A stretch of 64,000 nucleotides of DNA, taken from Acidobacteriota bacterium. GTDB lineage: Bacteria > Acidobacteriota > Thermoanaerobaculia > Multivoradales > JBCCEF01. Both the position numbers and the translations under genes were made by a program. Under the pieces are notes generated by a model. That model was not told the DNA's origin. It made no database searches and saw only the letters and a program-made list of their open reading frames with translations. The stretch covers positions 1-64,000 of the forward strand of contig JBCCHV010000032.1 in the NCBI GenBank assembly GCA_039028635.1, given 5' to 3'. Positions within the stretch are counted from its first letter, which is position 1, and each line of letters opens with the position of its first letter. Positions 20,338 to 26,858 of the stretch are shown here, in pieces.

Positions 20338-21242
20338 CCTCGAGCTCGGGCAACAACGGCGGCGAGATCTCAGACGAGCTGGCCGCCCTCTTCGGCCACC
20401 ATCGCCCGTACCTTTTCGCCGTCGCCTATCGCTTTCTGGGCATCGCCGAGGACGCCGAAGATGTCCTGCAAGAGGCCTGGCTGCGCTTGGCCTCGGCCCG
20501 CCCCGACGACCTCGAAGAGCCGCGCGCCTACCTCGTCACCATCGTCAGCCGCCTCTGCCTCGATCTGCTGCGCTCGGCGCGGCGGCGGCGGGAAGAGTAC
20601 GTCGGTGTCTGGCTGCCGGAACCGGTTCCGAGCCCACAAGCCCTTCCGGAAGGCGAAGTCCTGGCTCGCGAGTCAGCCTCCTTCGCCTTCCTGCTCCTGC
20701 TCGAAAGGCTGAGCCCACGGCAGCGGGTCGTGCTGGTTCTCCATGACGTCTTCGATTTCCGCCATCGCGAAATCGCCACCATCATCGGAAGCAGCCTCGA
20801 CGCCAGCCGCCAGATCCTACGCCGGGCACGGCGCGCCCTGGTCTTGCCGCGGCCGCCCGTACCGACCGCCTCCCCCGAGCTCATCGACCGCTTCTACACC
20901 GCCACCCGCGAGGGCGATCTCGAAGCGCTCCTCGCCACCCTGGCACCGGACGTCGTCTTGCTCAGTGACGGCGGAGGGCGCGTGTCGGCCCTGCCACAGC
21001 CACTGGCGGGCCGCTGGCGGGTCGGACGCTTCCTGATCGGAGTCAGTATCAAGACCGCCTGGGGCCCGGTCCAGCTCCAGGAGCTCAATGCCCAGCCGGC
21101 GCTGCTGATCTATCAGCAAGGAAAGCTGACCAACGCCATGCTCCTCGAGGCCGGTGCGGACGGCGTCCGCGCCCTCTACGTGGTGCGCAATCCGGACAAG
21201 CTGGCCGCCTTGGGGGCGAGATGGGAGATCGAGTTGGCGTAG
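20334..21242 (+). CDS. ECF41-family RNA polymerase sigma factor (SigJ-like)
   Basis: 302 residues. Sigma region 2 (about 15-85, AYRFLGIAEDAEDVLQEAWLR) and region 4 (about 110-165, LSPRQRVVLVLHDVF) are followed by a SnoaL-like C-terminal extension. All three diagnostic ECF41 motifs are present: WLPEP at 93-97, DGGGR at 212-216 and NPDKL at 286-290. In this group the extension replaces a separate anti-sigma factor. It is coupled to the epimerase by ATGA, and a matching promoter stands upstream of the pair. Its 3' end overlaps the end of the convergent acyltransferase gene by 67 bp. Confidence 0.95.
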   Translation: MTSSSGNNGGEISDELAALFGHHRPYLFAVAYRFLGIAEDAEDVLQEAWLRLASARPDDLEEPRAYLVTIVSRLCLDLLRSARRRREEYVGVWLPEPVPSPQALPEGEVLARESASFAFLLLLERLSPRQRVVLVLHDVFDFRHREIATIIGSSLDASRQILRRARRALVLPRPPVPTASPELIDRFYTATREGDLEALLATLAPDVVLLSDGGGRVSALPQPLAGRWRVGRFLIGVSIKTAWGPVQLQELNAQPALLIYQQGKLTNAMLLEAGADGVRALYVVRNPDKLAALGARWEIELA

Positions 21243-22627
21243 TAGCGCAGCACCGGTAGCTCGGCCTCGACGGCGGAGTAGAGACCCTCCTCCTCGGCCA
21301 CCAGGTGGCGCAGGATGAGCATGCGCAGCCCGAAATCGACGGCGTAGTCCTGGTCCTGGCGTGGAATGTAGACGTGGGCCCCGGAGCTCGCCAGGTGGTC
21401 CCGCAGAGCCAAGACTCGAGCCTTGAGCTCGAGGCTCGAGAGGGGTGAGCCGCCGGCCTCGTAGTTCTCGACCAGAACCGTTGCCACCAGCGGCACCGGC
21501 ACCACCGGGATCACCTTGCCGACGGCCGCCATCAGCTCCTCGGCGAGCGCTCCCACCTGCACGAAACGCTCTTCCTTCGAGAGCTCGCGGAGATCGACCC
21601 CTGTACGAGCCAACCATTGCCGAACCGACACCGGAGTGCCGAAGTTGACGCAGGCATAGCCGAACCGGAACCAGCGGTTGGTGACGATCTGGCGAAAGTT
21701 GCGCCCGATGAAGCGCAGCGTCGTCCAGGCGGCCTCGCCGGCGCCGCGCCGTTCGGCCTCGGGGTCGAGGTCGCGCAGCAGGGTGCGGTCCTCGAGCACC
21801 CGGTCGTAGTTGAGGCCGACCGGCACGAAGACCACGTCCCGCTCGCCCTGCGGATCGAAGGAGCGCAGCATGTAGTCGAGCAGACCGAGCTTCGGTGGCA
21901 ACAAGGCGCCGTCGCGGCTCAACCCACCCTCGGGATAGACCGCCTGGGTGACGCCGGATTTGGTCGCCATGTGGACATAGCGCTCGAGGACTCGCCGATA
22001 GAGGGCGTTGCGCGAGCGCCGGCGCACGAAGTAGGCCCCCATCGAGCGAATCAGCGTCTGCAGCGGCCAGATGCGGGCCCATTCACCGACGGCATAGGAA
22101 AGGGCGGTGCTCGCCGCCGCCAGATAGGCGACCAGGACGTAGTCCATGTTGCTGCGGTGGTTCATGATGAAGACCACCGTCGAGCGCGGATCGACCTGCG
22201 CCAGGGATTCTTCGTCCGTGTAGCCGACCCGCACCCGGTAGAGAAAGCGCGCCACCGAGCGGCCGATGCCGTAGCCGAATCGAAAGTAGAGGTAGGCGTT
22301 GAAGGCCGGAACGATCTCGCGGGCATAGCGCCGCACCCGGTCCATCGCGGCGGCCCGCGGGATGTCCTCCTCGCGGGCCAGGGTCTCCACCGTCTCCATC
22401 ACCTGGGGATCGAAGCGCAGGCGATCGATCAGCACCTGCCGCTTGGTGAGCTTGAAGGGCTGGACCTGAATTCGCAGGCGGGTGTTGAGCTCGTCCAGCA
22501 CCCGATTGACCCGCCGCCGGATGACATAGCGCACGCTCGGCATCAGCAGCCGGTCGAGCAGCGCCAGCGCCGCCGCAACCACCAGCAGAACGACCAGCCA
22601 GAGAGGAAGCGATATTTCCTGGGTCAT
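21176..22627 (-). CDS. PlsB-like glycerol-3-phosphate acyltransferase
   Basis: 483 residues with an N-terminal membrane helix (about 7-28). The acyltransferase core has block I NHRSNMDYVL (HX4D catalytic pair), block II with MGAYFVRR and block III VYPEGGLSRDG. These blocks resemble PlsB (HRSHMDY, EGGRSR) more than PlsC, although the protein is shorter than the 800-residue E. coli PlsB. Expected reaction: acylation of glycerol-3-phosphate at the inner membrane. The next gene on the same strand upstream is a PlsC-like enzyme that could perform the second acylation. No clear ribosome binding site is seen. Confidence 0.82.
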   Translation of the reverse strand: MTQEISLPLWLVVLLVVAAALALLDRLLMPSVRYVIRRRVNRVLDELNTRLRIQVQPFKLTKRQVLIDRLRFDPQVMETVETLAREEDIPRAAAMDRVRRYAREIVPAFNAYLYFRFGYGIGRSVARFLYRVRVGYTDEESLAQVDPRSTVVFIMNHRSNMDYVLVAYLAAASTALSYAVGEWARIWPLQTLIRSMGAYFVRRRSRNALYRRVLERYVHMATKSGVTQAVYPEGGLSRDGALLPPKLGLLDYMLRSFDPQGERDVVFVPVGLNYDRVLEDRTLLRDLDPEAERRGAGEAAWTTLRFIGRNFRQIVTNRWFRFGYACVNFGTPVSVRQWLARTGVDLRELSKEERFVQVGALAEELMAAVGKVIPVVPVPLVATVLVENYEAGGSPLSSLELKARVLALRDHLASSGAHVYIPRQDQDYAVDFGLRMLILRHLVAEEEGLYSAVEAELPVLRYYANSISHLAPKAASLSGLRTT

Positions 22628-22726
22628 GGAGATGAAGGCATCTTACTGCACCGCCCGGCCCACCAGCGCAGCCCGTCTCACGGCTTCGCCGCCGGACCGG
22701 GGGCGCCCAGCTCTCTCGGGCCCGGA

Positions 22727-22761
22727 AGCAGGTTGCCGATGGGTTTTCGGCAACCTGCTAG
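22727..22761. repeat. Short palindromic element at the 3' end of the PlsC-like gene
   Basis: AGCAGGTTGCCGA (22727-22739) pairs perfectly with TCGGCAACCTGCT (22747-22759), with a seven-base loop. The right border is CTAG (22758-22761), whose complement gives the TAG stop of the PlsC-like gene. A related CATCGGCAACCTGCTTCCGGGCC string occurs near 23625 inside copy B. It is probably a reduced member of the same element family and a likely terminator. Confidence 0.7.
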
Positions 22762-23504
22762 TCGGTGACCACGAACTGTCGCGCCATCGCCTGCCGCAAG
22801 GCGGCGGCGAGCTGCTTGCGGTCCTCACCCACCAAGGGCTGGTCGCCGAAGGTCACCGTAGCCTCGAAGCCACGCAGCCGCTGAAAGCGCTTGAAGTGCG
22901 GCGCCAGCTCCTCGTCCCCGTACCAGCAGATGGCGTCACGGGCCCGCTGCGCCCCCGGCGGCGTGCGGTAGGCCAGGGTGGCGTAGTGCACGGGATAGCC
23001 CGCCCTCACCGCCACCTCGAGGAGCGAAGCCTTGAACGGCAGCAGCTCCGAGCCATCCCCGGTCGTGCCTTCGCCGAACAGGATGATGCCGCCGCCATGG
23101 TTCAAGCGCTCTTCGGCGAGAGCACCGATGCGCAGCAGATCCCGTTTGGTCCCACGATCGATCAGCAGCGTGTCCGAAGCCCGGCAGATGGACCCCACCA
23201 CCGGCCAGGCCCCGAGGTCGGCTTTGGCGACGAAGGTTCCCCCGACCAGGCTTCCGAGGAGCGGAATGTCGACATAGCTGAGGTGATTCGTGACCAGGAA
23301 GAAGGGCGGCTCGGGGAGATTGCCCTGCACCGTCAGCTCGAGGCCGAAGGCGCGGCACAGGCTCGCGCCCCAGCGGCGCATGATGCGGTCTTGATGGGCG
23401 ATGCGTTGGGTCGGCCGATGACGCCGGCGCCAGGAGCCCAAGCTCACCGAGAGGTAGTCGCGACCGGTCGCCAGCGCCACCGCGAGGAGGCCACTGGCCT
23501 TCAC
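22758..23504 (-). CDS. 1-acylglycerol-3-phosphate O-acyltransferase-like protein
   Basis: About 248 residues, PlsC-sized. Block I NHLSYVDIPLLG holds the catalytic HX4D, block II is AKADLGAWPVVG, and block III FGEGTTGDG is the substrate-binding EGT motif. A weakly hydrophobic segment lies near the N terminus. Likely role: transfer of an acyl chain to lysophosphatidate or a related lipid at the inner membrane. The frame stays open upstream into the repeat element but has no ATG; GTG at 23504 is chosen without ribosome-site support. The stop TAG belongs to a repeat border. Confidence 0.8.
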   Translation of the reverse strand: MKASGLLAVALATGRDYLSVSLGSWRRRHRPTQRIAHQDRIMRRWGASLCRAFGLELTVQGNLPEPPFFLVTNHLSYVDIPLLGSLVGGTFVAKADLGAWPVVGSICRASDTLLIDRGTKRDLLRIGALAEERLNHGGGIILFGEGTTGDGSELLPFKASLLEVAVRAGYPVHYATLAYRTPPGAQRARDAICWYGDEELAPHFKRFQRLRGFEATVTFGDQPLVGEDRKQLAAALRQAMARQFVVTD

Positions 23505-23602
23505 CAGAAAGGGCCGTTCAGAATTGCCGTCGGCGGAGCGAATGCGGCTCGTGAAGAGGAGGCCGGAGGCAGCACGGCGGGGAGTATACCCGCCGTGCCC
23601 CG

Positions 23603-23924
23603 CTAGCTGCCTGCTGAAAAACTCATCGGCAACCTGCTTCCGGGCCTGAGAGGGCCCGGCGGCGGCAGAGGCTTGAAGGGGCCGCCCTGGATTGGGCCGA
23701 GGACGGGGCGGCCTGCCGACAGTAGGCACCGTCTGCTACTCCAGCAGACGGTCTCCGAGCCCAAAGGGCGAGGCGGCGCCGAAGGCGCCGAGGTCGGGGG
23801 CGCCCGGCCAGGGGTGAGAGCCAACGACATGTGCGTTGGCTCGAGGGGGGCGCCTTTTAGCCCCCCTGAAATAAACAGCAGGCGCTGAAGAAGCCGCCAC
23901 GCGGCTTTTTCAGCAGCCTGCTAG
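23603..23924. mobile_element. MITE-like palindromic element, copy B
   Basis: A 314-bp unit (23607-23920) with CTAG on both sides (23603-23606, 23921-23924). The terminal repeats CTGCCTGCTGAAAAA and TTTTTCAGCAGCCTG are inverse at 13 of 15 positions. The right 75-80 bp is the near-identical inverse of the left end of copy A at 8.7 kb. Inside are GGGGGG/CCCCCC hairpins, a GCGCC-rich stem block and the GAGCCAACG/CGTTGGCTC module (23818-23842) also found twice at the start of the window. The right border supplies the TAG stop of the M56-M23 gene. No transposase is present. Confidence 0.78.
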
Positions 23925-25903
23925 CAGTTGTCGTCGTCTCGCAGTTCCGGCAGGAGCAGCGCCGGATCGATCGGCTCGCCCTGGCGATGGACCTCGAAGT
24001 GGAGGTGCGGCCCGGTGGTTCGGCCGGTCATGCCGACGGTTCCCACCGCCTGCCCCATCGCCACCTCGTCTCCGACGACGACCAGCGAGGTGTCGAGATG
24101 GGCATAGAGGGTCTCGATGCCCTCGCCATGATCGACGATCACCGTCAGGCCGTAGGCTCCGTCCTCGCCAAAGGCGACGTCGACTTCGGTCACGCGGCCG
24201 GCGGCGGCAGATCGCACCGAGGTGCCGCGGGCGGCCCGCAGATCAACCCCGCGGTGATGTTTGCGGTCGCCATCGCGCGGATCGGGACGCATGCCGAAGG
24301 TGCTGGTCAAGATACCGCCACCGAGGGGATGGGCCGAGCTCAGACCACCCACCGTCGGACCTCTCCGGCCGCGCCCCGCCGAGCCTCCTTCACCCTGCCA
24401 AAAGGGAACGAAGGAGCCGACATCGAAAGATCGGGCCGGCTGGACCGGCTGCACGGGCTGGACCGGCTGGACGGGCTGAGGTGGCTGCACCGGTTGCGAG
24501 GACGGCGGTGCCCATTGCGGAGTCGGCGGCGGCGCCGGTCGCGCAGCTCGCGGCGCCACCGCTGGCCGAGGAGCCACTTCGAAAACCTCCGCCGACGGCG
24601 CTACCGATGGCGGCAGCGGGCGCGGCACGAGGACGCGGGGGGTTCCGGGCGCCGCAACCACGGCATCCGGGGCCACCGCCACTCCAGGTACCGCAGGTAA
24701 GGAGCCATCGGGCACCGGCACCGCTGGTGGGCTCACGGGCGGCGCGGCGGGTGCGGCCTTGGCGCTCGGTGCGGCCTTGGGCCTCGGCACGGCCACCGCG
24801 AACGGCTCGACGACCGGGGCCACCACAGGCGACGGTGCCGGAGGGGCCACGACGGGCGACGGTGCCGGCGGCGCCACCACCGGTTGGACCGCGAATCCTG
24901 CAGCGCCGCCAACGCCGGCCATCGGCAGGAGCAAGAGGCCGAAGGCGGCACAAAACCACCAACCGGAAGCGCGGGTGGGTCGATTCTCGAGGATGTTCTT
25001 CATGCGCACGGTGAGTCTCCTATGGGAATCCCCCATGCCCGGCGCCGCCGGTAGCGTTTTCGGGGCCGCCGGCAGGCCCAGCACGGCGAGCAAGCTGGCG
25101 GCGTACTCGCGCCGCGTCAGGCGGCCACAGGCCAGCACCGCCGCATCGACACCACGCTCGCGGGCATCGTTGAGATAGGCCGCCGCCCGCCAGGCGAGGG
25201 GGTTGAAGAAGTGAAGGATTTGAACGACGTTTTGAAATCCCAGTCGCAGGACGTCGAAGCGCTGGACATGGACCAGCTCATGGGCCAGCACAGCCTCCGC
25301 GGTCCGCCCTCCGATGGCGACCAGCGCCGCCGGCAGGTAGATCACGGGGCGCCGCAGGCCCCAGGTGAAGGGCTGACCGTGACGACCGACGATCAAACGC
25401 ACCGGCCGCCGAATGCCCAGCTCGCGGCGCCAGCTCGCGAGCTGGTCGATGAGCTCGCCGGCGCGGACTTCCTGCCCTGCCGCCAGATAGCTCCGGAAGA
25501 GACGTCGGCGCCGTCCCAGCAGCCATCCTCCGAAGAGAATCCCGCCTCCCCACAGAGCACAGCCGAGGCCGGCCAACAGGGCCCCGGAGGCCACCGTGGG
25601 TTCCGCAGGTCCAGCGAGGGACGTCCGAACCGCGATCTCGCTGGCGACCGGCGCCAGCGGCAGAACCCATTCGAGGGCCTCTCCCGGCGGCACCGTCAGG
25701 CGCTCCGCCAAGGCCCTCAGGCTCCAGGGAGCCGCCCAGTCGAGGGGCAGGACGAGACGCAGCAGAACGAGTCCCCAAAGACCAGCCTGCAGCCGGGGCG
25801 GCGCGGTCTTCCAGACCCTGAGCAGGGCCCAGACGGCGGCGAAGGCGAGAGCTCCGTAGAAAGTCTGCAGACCCACCGCCCGCATCACATCGAGGGTCGC
25901 CAT
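23921..25903 (-). CDS. BlaR1-type M56 metallopeptidase fused to an M23 (LytM) peptidase
   Basis: 660 residues. The N-terminal half is a BlaR1/MecR1-like M56 integral membrane protease: several membrane helices, zinc motif HELVH at 208-212 and FNPLAWRA. A further helix near 350-375 leads into a low-complexity Pro/Val/Ala/Gln linker (about 380-510, repeats such as VVAPPAPSP and QPVQP). The C-terminal 140 residues are an M23 endopeptidase with HRGVD (H550, D554) and HLH (H633, H635), a complete zinc site. The usual penicillin-binding sensor is absent. The ATG at 25903 follows the blaI stop by one base. An envelope sensor that reads or cuts peptidoglycan is inferred. Confidence 0.88.
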   Translation of the reverse strand: MATLDVMRAVGLQTFYGALAFAAVWALLRVWKTAPPRLQAGLWGLVLLRLVLPLDWAAPWSLRALAERLTVPPGEALEWVLPLAPVASEIAVRTSLAGPAEPTVASGALLAGLGCALWGGGILFGGWLLGRRRRLFRSYLAAGQEVRAGELIDQLASWRRELGIRRPVRLIVGRHGQPFTWGLRRPVIYLPAALVAIGGRTAEAVLAHELVHVQRFDVLRLGFQNVVQILHFFNPLAWRAAAYLNDARERGVDAAVLACGRLTRREYAASLLAVLGLPAAPKTLPAAPGMGDSHRRLTVRMKNILENRPTRASGWWFCAAFGLLLLPMAGVGGAAGFAVQPVVAPPAPSPVVAPPAPSPVVAPVVEPFAVAVPRPKAAPSAKAAPAAPPVSPPAVPVPDGSLPAVPGVAVAPDAVVAAPGTPRVLVPRPLPPSVAPSAEVFEVAPRPAVAPRAARPAPPPTPQWAPPSSQPVQPPQPVQPVQPVQPVQPARSFDVGSFVPFWQGEGGSAGRGRRGPTVGGLSSAHPLGGGILTSTFGMRPDPRDGDRKHHRGVDLRAARGTSVRSAAAGRVTEVDVAFGEDGAYGLTVIVDHGEGIETLYAHLDTSLVVVGDEVAMGQAVGTVGMTGRTTGPHLHFEVHRQGEPIDPALLLPELRDDDNC

Positions 25904-25904
25904 C

Positions 25905-26303
25905 TCAGTCCTCTCTCTCCAGCAGCCGGGTGAGCTCGGCGAGCTCGTCCTCGGACAGGGACCCGCCACGGGCGAACAAGGGAACGACGGCGACGGCATC
26001 GAGCTCGAGAACCTTCTCGGCGAAGTCACGCACCCGCCGGGCCAAACCCTGCGGCCGGCTGATGCGAGGGTCGTAGAGCCAGACACCATGGAAGCTCTTC
26101 TTCTCCAGGTGTCCTTTCTTGACCAAGCGCTCGAGCACGGTCCGGGTCGTCGAGTAGGCCCAGTCGTGACGGCTGCGAAGCTGATCGTGGACTTCCCGAG
26201 CGCTGAGAGCCCCGGCCTTCCACAGCACGGACATGGCATCGAGCTCAGAGCTGGCGAGCTCCGGGAGGGGCTGATCGGTCAATGGGGTCTCCGTTTCGGG
26301 CAT
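25905..26303 (-). CDS. BlaI/MecI-family transcriptional repressor
   Basis: 132 residues. The winged-helix domain (about 12-85) has the family pattern LPELASSELDAMSVLWKAG, STTRTVLERLVKKGHLE and GVWLYDPR, followed by a helical C-terminal dimerisation region. BlaI repressors are inactivated by proteolysis triggered by the partner M56 membrane protease, here the next gene one base away. A palindromic BlaI-type site (TACATTTGTA) lies 45 bp upstream. The start at 26303 has CAGGAA upstream; an in-frame ATG at 26339 would add 12 residues and is the main alternative. Confidence 0.92.
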   Translation of the reverse strand: MPETETPLTDQPLPELASSELDAMSVLWKAGALSAREVHDQLRSRHDWAYSTTRTVLERLVKKGHLEKKSFHGVWLYDPRISRPQGLARRVRDFAEKVLELDAVAVVPLFARGGSLSEDELAELTRLLERED

Positions 26304-26347
26304 CGGGCAATTCCTGGGGACGAACGCTTCGCTCGTCATCGATTCGC

Positions 26348-26357
26348 TACATTTGTA
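26348..26357. promoter_or_regulatory. BlaI-type operator upstream of the blaI-M56/M23 operon
   Basis: TACATTTGTA is a perfect TACA/TGTA dyad. BlaI and MecI operators contain TACA-NN-TGTA cores, for example TACATATGTA. Its place just before the repressor gene predicts autorepression of the operon, and possibly of the divergent ferredoxin gene. Confidence 0.7.
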
Positions 26358-26501
26358 ACACATCTCTGACACGCTCGCAAGACCAACCCTTCGGCACAGT
26401 TTTGTTAGCCTGAGCCCGCCGAGACTTTCCACCGGTTCCTCGGCTGCGAGCCTGGGGTGGAATTTCGGGCCGAGACGACCAACTCCAGGGAGAGCGACGG
26501 C

Positions 26502-26858
26502 GTGCCGAAGATCGAAGTCGAGGAATTCGGGAGCATCGAAGTCGCGAAGGGAGCCCGGCTGGTCAATGCCCTCGCCGAGGCCGGCATCGACATCAGCTAT
26601 CGCTGCGGAGGCTGGGGCGGCTGCACCACCTGCCTGGTGCAGTTCTTGGCCGGCGAGCCTTGCCGAATGACCGCGGCGGAACACAAGAAGCTCACCGCCA
26701 GCAAACTCTTGGGCAAAGCGAGAATGGCCTGCCAGACCCTGGTCGAAGGCGACGCTCGCCTCAAGGTCCTGCTGCGAGTCTCGGAGCAGAGCTGGAATCT
26801 GCCGGGCACCAAGCCCGAACCGAAGATCACACCGGAGCCGGTCTGGAGAGAGAGGTAG
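26502..26858 (+). CDS. 2Fe-2S ferredoxin
   Basis: 118 residues with a plant-type beta-grasp ferredoxin fold. The cluster ligands are CGGWGGCTTC (C-x5-C-x2-C) around residues 36-45 and a final Cys in ARMACQT about 30 residues later. It is a soluble electron carrier; its redox partner is not encoded nearby. A GTG at 26502, nine bases after AGGGAG, is preferred over an upstream GTG at 26457, which lacks a site. It is divergent from blaI and convergent with the SGNH hydrolase gene. Confidence 0.88.
   Translation: MPKIEVEEFGSIEVAKGARLVNALAEAGIDISYRCGGWGGCTTCLVQFLAGEPCRMTAAEHKKLTASKLLGKARMACQTLVEGDARLKVLLRVSEQSWNLPGTKPEPKITPEPVWRER

Follow-up and report, generated by a model that had tools for sequence, protein, structure and literature searches.

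A BlaI-paired M56 membrane protease carrying an M23 domain in Acidobacteriota: a candidate BlaR1-type switch independent of beta-lactams

The closest described systems are BlaR1/BlaI and MecR1/MecI of Staphylococcus, in which a BlaI-family repressor with a dyad operator lies beside an M56 membrane protease. In BlaR1 the residues His201, Glu202, His205, Asp210, Glu242, Asp246, Tyr261 and Arg294 matter, and the protease cleaves BlaI between Asn101 and Phe102, a site at which the P1' Phe is almost invariant (PMC9834060). A precedent for another input is provided by PetR/PetP of cyanobacteria, a BlaI/M56-type pair in which a BlaI-like factor stands under a BlaR1-like protease and the input is copper rather than a beta-lactam; unlike the system described below, it controls petE and petJ through a proposed copper-dependent protease, and the account of the pair, as far as it goes into domains, does not mention M23 (PMC7896320). 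The picture of how Gram-negative bacteria sense wall state is incomplete, and for BlaR1 it is solely the form with a beta-lactam sensor that is understood; a relative of BlaR1 that naturally bears an M23 domain offers a well-defined candidate for a wall-state receptor that can be put to the test. Here we describe such a protein from an Acidobacteriota bacterium (assembly GCA_039028635.1). The window analysed is the whole stretch of 64,000 nucleotides at positions 1 to 64,000 of contig JBCCHV010000032.1, and the locus within it consists of the following features.

26348-26357, strand not applicable: predicted BlaI-type operator, a perfect dyad TACAAATGTA lying 5' of the BlaI gene (motif counts)
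about 25905-26303, minus strand: BlaI/MecI-family repressor (PF03965, E 4.7e-25; MecI 1okr, E 3e-12; Phe at the BlaR1 cleavage-site P1')
23921-25903, minus strand: whole M56-M23 protein, 660 residues
24917-25903, minus strand: M56 (BlaR1-type) part, with predicted TM1-TM3, predicted cytosolic gluzincin domain and most of TM4 (PF05569; profile match to BlaR1 8exs; AF2)
24302-24916, minus strand: end of TM4 and Pro-rich linker (AF2 pLDDT, length, Pro content)
23921-24301, minus strand: M23 (LytM) domain with zinc ligands and both catalytic His (PF01551; alignment; Foldseek)

A single G separates the TGA of the BlaI gene from the M56 protein's start codon, an ATG at 25903, and translation from this ATG gives 660 aa in a frame uninterrupted by any stop down to 23921; the mechanically called ORF (772 aa, to 26239) has its start over-extended into the BlaI gene. 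The BlaI start was set at the ATG at 26303 because AGGA precedes it, a second in-frame ATG being present at 26339. Pfam placed Penicillinase_R (PF03965) at BlaI residues 25-136 (E 4.7e-25, 88.6 bits against a cut-off of 22.6), and Peptidase_M56 and Peptidase_M23 at residues 15-304 (E 2.2e-31) and 549-647 (E 9.3e-32) of the long protein, all three well over their gathering scores. The initial annotation, made from the sequence, had described a BlaI gene one base from an M56 protein with a Pro-rich linker and an M23 domain, and translation and Pfam bear it out, as they do the positions of HELVH (208-212) and of the two M23 zinc motifs (HHRGVD, 549-554; PHLHFE, 632-637). The stop or frameshift between the halves that it had considered is absent: the frame is open, and the fusion with its upstream BlaI recurs in other genomes. 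An assembly artefact was likewise ruled out by the same fusion at 15 other loci on independent contigs, and for this reason the M56 and M23 halves are regarded as one real protein. A scan of the locus for sigma-70 promoters and terminators found none. Two acyltransferases lie downstream (within 21176-23729) and likewise adjoin the fusion in a same-genus genome, and a divergent gene at 26457-26858 encodes a 2Fe-2S ferredoxin-like protein.

The M56 half is supported as BlaR1-like in sequence, predicted topology and fold. It has all eight gluzincin residues of BlaR1 named above (as HELVH 208-212, D217, E249xxxD253, Y267 and R300), and in the alignment these are invariant in 15/15 fusions; its profile matches S. 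aureus BlaR1 (8exs) with E 1.8e-10. The M56 part was modelled alone because a full-length fold search gave only M23 proteins among the 50 matches listed. The AlphaFold (AF2) model of residues 1-339 has a mean pLDDT of 83; the PDB entries that it matches best are BlaR1 cryo-EM structures, with moderate TM-scores (0.44-0.52 by query). Hydropathy peaks at 10-28, 107-126 and 316-339, together with AF2 helices including 36-51, fit the predicted four-TM layout; on the pattern of BlaR1 (N-out, C-out), the C-terminal part would be periplasmic. At the autocleavage P1' position the window protein has Met where BlaR1 has Phe (Phe284), and Phe, Met, Leu or Trp occupy it in 12/15 fusions, in a part of the alignment that is gappy.

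The resemblance to BlaR1 and MecR1 ends at the sensor. No penicillin-binding or class D beta-lactamase-like sensor was found in the window protein, in which Pfam gives M56 and M23 only, and the NCBIfam BlaR1 model covers just residues 140-305 with 38.9 bits against a cut-off of 400. Replacement of the sensor, as first proposed from the sequence, is supported, its place on what is predicted to be the periplasmic face being taken by an M23 domain on a Pro-rich linker. Lacking a penicillin-binding sensor, the window protein falls outside the strict definition of a BlaR1 receptor; also unlike the BlaR1/MecR1 systems, no beta-lactamase or PBP gene was noticed beside the operon. The same genome encodes five other M56 proteins (L001, L002, L004, L005, L006), whose C-termini carry HEAT, ankyrin, other or no domains; HEAT or ankyrin repeats, present in two of them, would be unusual as periplasmic input domains.

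Between TM4 and the M23 domain lies a linker of about 200 residues with 25% Pro, for which AF2 pLDDT is mostly below 50 (348-538) and disorder is predicted; in most relatives the linker has 40-80 residues. A permissive motif search, run without a control, found small-x-Ala motifs after TM4 in most Acidobacteriota fusions (VHA/DDD, ASA/EAP, ASA/EST) and a signal-peptidase-like GFA/VQP after the last TM helix of the window protein. Signal peptidase sheds the BlaR1 sensor at the equivalent place (PMC9834060), and these motifs would allow the M23 domain to be shed in the same way, as it may be.

The M23 domain shares its fold and zinc motifs with EnvC, DipM, ShyA and LytM, which are among its best matches by fold (Foldseek) or sequence, the best structural match being the LytM domain of EnvC bound to AmiB. 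To our knowledge, none of these four has an M56 protease joined to it or a BlaI partner. In the window protein the zinc ligands are H550, D554 and H635, and alignment gives the His of YAHL and H633 as the catalytic histidines, with motif roles as set out in the M23 review, in the part dealing with these motifs (PMC9662197); the domain looks catalytically complete by this prediction. The zinc ligands are retained in all readable fusions. Both catalytic histidines are intact in eight readable Acidobacteriota proteins (window included), in one Gilvimarinus copy and in the protein of G1388, whereas one of them is replaced in 4/5 readable Gammaproteobacterial proteins (RLH, NLH, YVRL, YAPL). The M56 HExxH is lost in no fusion. 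Since the zinc ligands stay despite loss of a catalytic His, while the HExxH always stays, an input role for the M23 domain is favoured; and since four of the five Gammaproteobacterial homologues are without a catalytic His, binding rather than cutting suggests itself as the conserved role. On the simplest reading of these residues, binding of the wall or of a partner would be constant and cutting optional.

In total, 16 M56-M23 fusions were found: nine in the Acidobacteriota order of the window, six in Gammaproteobacteria (two each in Parahaliea mediterranea and Gilvimarinus algae, one each in G843 and G984) and one in another Pseudomonadota genome, G1388. Within the 72 genomes of the order, the nine closest M56 relatives (E <= 1e-60; weakest 3e-108) are all M23 fusions, and with nine of the 72 genomes carrying one, a unique oddity is ruled out. 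The fusion is rare, with at least four confirmed in 396 genomes of the phylum, a presence in at least one of 369 genomes sampled from the gammaproteobacterial class (as two copies) and in at least two of 399 Pseudomonadota genomes, all of these being lower bounds as the search thresholds miss weak relatives. M56 proteins abound in a second order of Gammaproteobacteria, and none of those fetched has an M23 domain. Spread by plasmid was considered and set aside, no plasmid record covering 80% of the M56-M23 protein.

BlaI lies directly upstream of all 16 fusions, which answers in the affirmative the question raised at the outset of whether it always precedes them. BlaI also precedes 85 of 93 non-fusion M56 proteins, so adjacency by itself says little, being a necessary feature with no discriminating force. 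The M56-domain and BlaI trees each place the fusion set in a group that has just two further rows, L131, whose contig ends before any M23 domain could appear, and L132, which ends in TonB_C. The fusion BlaIs and these two form one clade (SH-aLRT 97); support in the M56 tree is weaker, at 83 for the full fusion group and 98 for the majority of its Acidobacteriota members, long branches occur in several places, and G1388 has no assignable position. A single origin of the fusions is likely on these trees, not proven.

The partner repressors carry the best sequence evidence that the M56 proteins of the fusions may cut BlaI in the BlaR1 manner. With positions set by alignment on LNF of MecI, the P1' Phe is found in 15/15 fusion-partner BlaIs, across two phyla, and in 4/85 BlaIs partnered with non-fusion M56 proteins, a contrast inflated by kinship because the fusion BlaIs form one clade; two of the four exceptions are L131 and L132, sisters of that clade. 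The P1 residue differs from the Asn of the staphylococcal repressors, being Leu or Met in the fusion partners and Leu in the window (PL/F at the LN/F position of MecI).

The dyad TACAAATGTA at 26348-26357 is the sole TACANNTGTA in the window, where 0.01 is expected, and TACANATGTA occurs three times in 6.28 Mb. Similar dyads precede the BlaI genes of G001, G016, G022, G023, G040, L131 and L132, several being marginal (0.04-0.08) in single-sequence tests with mononucleotide shuffles; no recognisable operator was found upstream of the fusions in G005, G027 and most Gammaproteobacteria. In relatives, some paralogous BlaI genes have palindromic sites as well. Searching with SYTACANNTGTNGC, a motif derived from the family, gave one site in G001 (same genus) and two in G000, the fusion operon being among them in both genomes, and as the motif was drawn from these very sites, the absence of other targets is the point worth noting. 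Strict operator scans of these two same-genus genomes gave no convincing second target, and a looser scan, which added a few sites in G000, gave fewer matches than the control in 6/6 genomes. A wider regulon was rejected, as in G000 the strict scans hit only a BrnT-like gene, a mobile-looking region with no convincing gene and a site within a coding frame. The first of these, the additional SYTACANNTGTNGC site, is either a chance match or the BrnT-like system's own operator; around L161:1501 (contig 70), the operator-like GTTACAGTTGTCGC overlaps the start of the BrnT-toxin-like gene. A further perfect copy of the TACAAATGTA dyad, at L010:4011-4020 (contig 7, about 44510), lies between TTGACA and TAAAGT hexamers, in AT-rich, mobile-looking surroundings near DprA-like and phosphoribosyltransferase-like genes and with no convincing gene downstream. 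An operator at the promoter with no convincing second target in G000 or G001 suggests autoregulation, and the window operon is probably autoregulated through this predicted operator.

In the parts of the 2022 M23 review that deal with co-domains, M56 is listed as a rare one with no function given, such co-domain types together making up less than 1% of M23 proteins; those proteins have the same two catalytic domains in one chain as the window protein, and there BlaR1 and MecR1 are named as M56 members with no BlaI pairing or signalling role (PMC9662197). Our literature search returned no paper joining M56, M23, BlaI and peptidoglycan, and none on the function of the fusion. The product name 'M23/M56 family metallopeptidase' is in use at NCBI, and the domain pair itself is already listed; what appears to be new here is the evidence, at the sequence level, that BlaI, M56 and M23 form a conserved module, backed by the cleavage site and the operator.

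Our best explanation, to which we give somewhat better than an even chance, is a two-gene switch of the BlaR1 type that is independent of beta-lactams and whose M23 domain makes contact, in the periplasm, with the wall or a partner associated with it. It draws on the anatomy, the residue conservation, the operator and the three-part co-occurrence, and its topology, BlaI cleavage, ligand, direction of signalling and autoregulation would be as follows. BlaI would repress its own operon from the TACAAATGTA operator, and the M56 protein would span the membrane with its zinc protease in the cytosol and its M23 domain in the periplasm on a long tether. Engagement of a ligand by the M23 domain, be it peptidoglycan, a muropeptide or a wall-associated protein, would release the M56 protease for cleavage of BlaI at its conserved hydrophobic-Phe bond, and the operon would be derepressed, so that more receptor, M23 domain included, is made. 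Against this stand the several fusions with no recognisable operator and two of the closest M56 relatives, one with a TonB_C terminus and one cut off by a contig edge, and with a disordered linker of some 200 residues a rigid sensor-protease coupling in the style of BlaR1 is hard to picture in the window protein. The fusion suggests that an M56 protease can couple to another outer domain, and it hints at how antibiotic-sensing BlaR1 might have arisen by outer-domain exchange. The wider proposal of a dispersed BlaR1-type family that senses wall structure or muropeptides, not beta-lactams, via a peptidoglycan-binding M23 domain and so triggers BlaI cleavage, the sensor in some members being also an active hydrolase in control of its own production, is possible but rather doubtful.

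Intact M23 catalytic residues in the eight readable Acidobacteriota proteins weigh against the sensor reading, as they are equally expected of a plain hydrolase. The M23 domain could then be the output, BlaI and M56 setting the level of a self-controlled supply of wall hydrolase that stays tethered or is shed by signal peptidase after TM4; the long flexible linker fits this, as do the small-x-Ala motifs at the place where the BlaR1 sensor is shed and the fact that the operon's own genes are the only convincing operator-linked ones in G000 and G001. We nevertheless consider it unlikely, since the whole system persists in four of the five readable Gammaproteobacterial homologues despite the loss of a catalytic His, the trigger of the M56 protease is left unexplained and the shedding motifs come from a permissive search with no control. 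Partial degeneracy of the Gammaproteobacterial copies, and the match to EnvC bound to AmiB, would instead suit a docking domain of the EnvC/NlpD kind, whose target for sensing or recruitment is a protein, such as an amidase or division factor, and not peptidoglycan; degenerate M23 folds typically act through protein-protein contact, according to the review section on them (PMC9662197). Such a role is improbable here, as the window domain has the full catalytic set, which EnvC does not, and no partner gene is conserved beside the fusions across most genomes, where only a PF00756 esterase recurs, in three. Least probable of the readings considered is ordinary domain shuffling, by which M56 proteins would exchange their C-terminal parts freely, with no dedicated signalling role for that part at this locus. 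It is in keeping with the varied C-termini of the five other M56 proteins of the genome and with the close relative ending in TonB_C, but the M23 fusion recurs across two phyla with one BlaI clade keeping the cleavage-site Phe, and the M23 zinc ligands are preserved throughout.

Several features of individual relatives were also recorded. The PF00756 esterase adjoins the fusion in three distant genomes (L163:7549-8493, L167:3899-5101, L173:3058-4404), once directly downstream on the same strand. Both Parahaliea fusions are flanked by related TonB-dependent-receptor-like genes (L170:2410-4917, L171:7062-9323), one directly downstream and one divergent. In G984 (L174:5303-6846) the M23 part is frameshifted, by sequencing error or in a decaying gene, and the Pseudomonadota M56-M23 protein at L180:1429-3813 has an extra charged, coiled-coil-like tail of 300 residues past its M23 domain.
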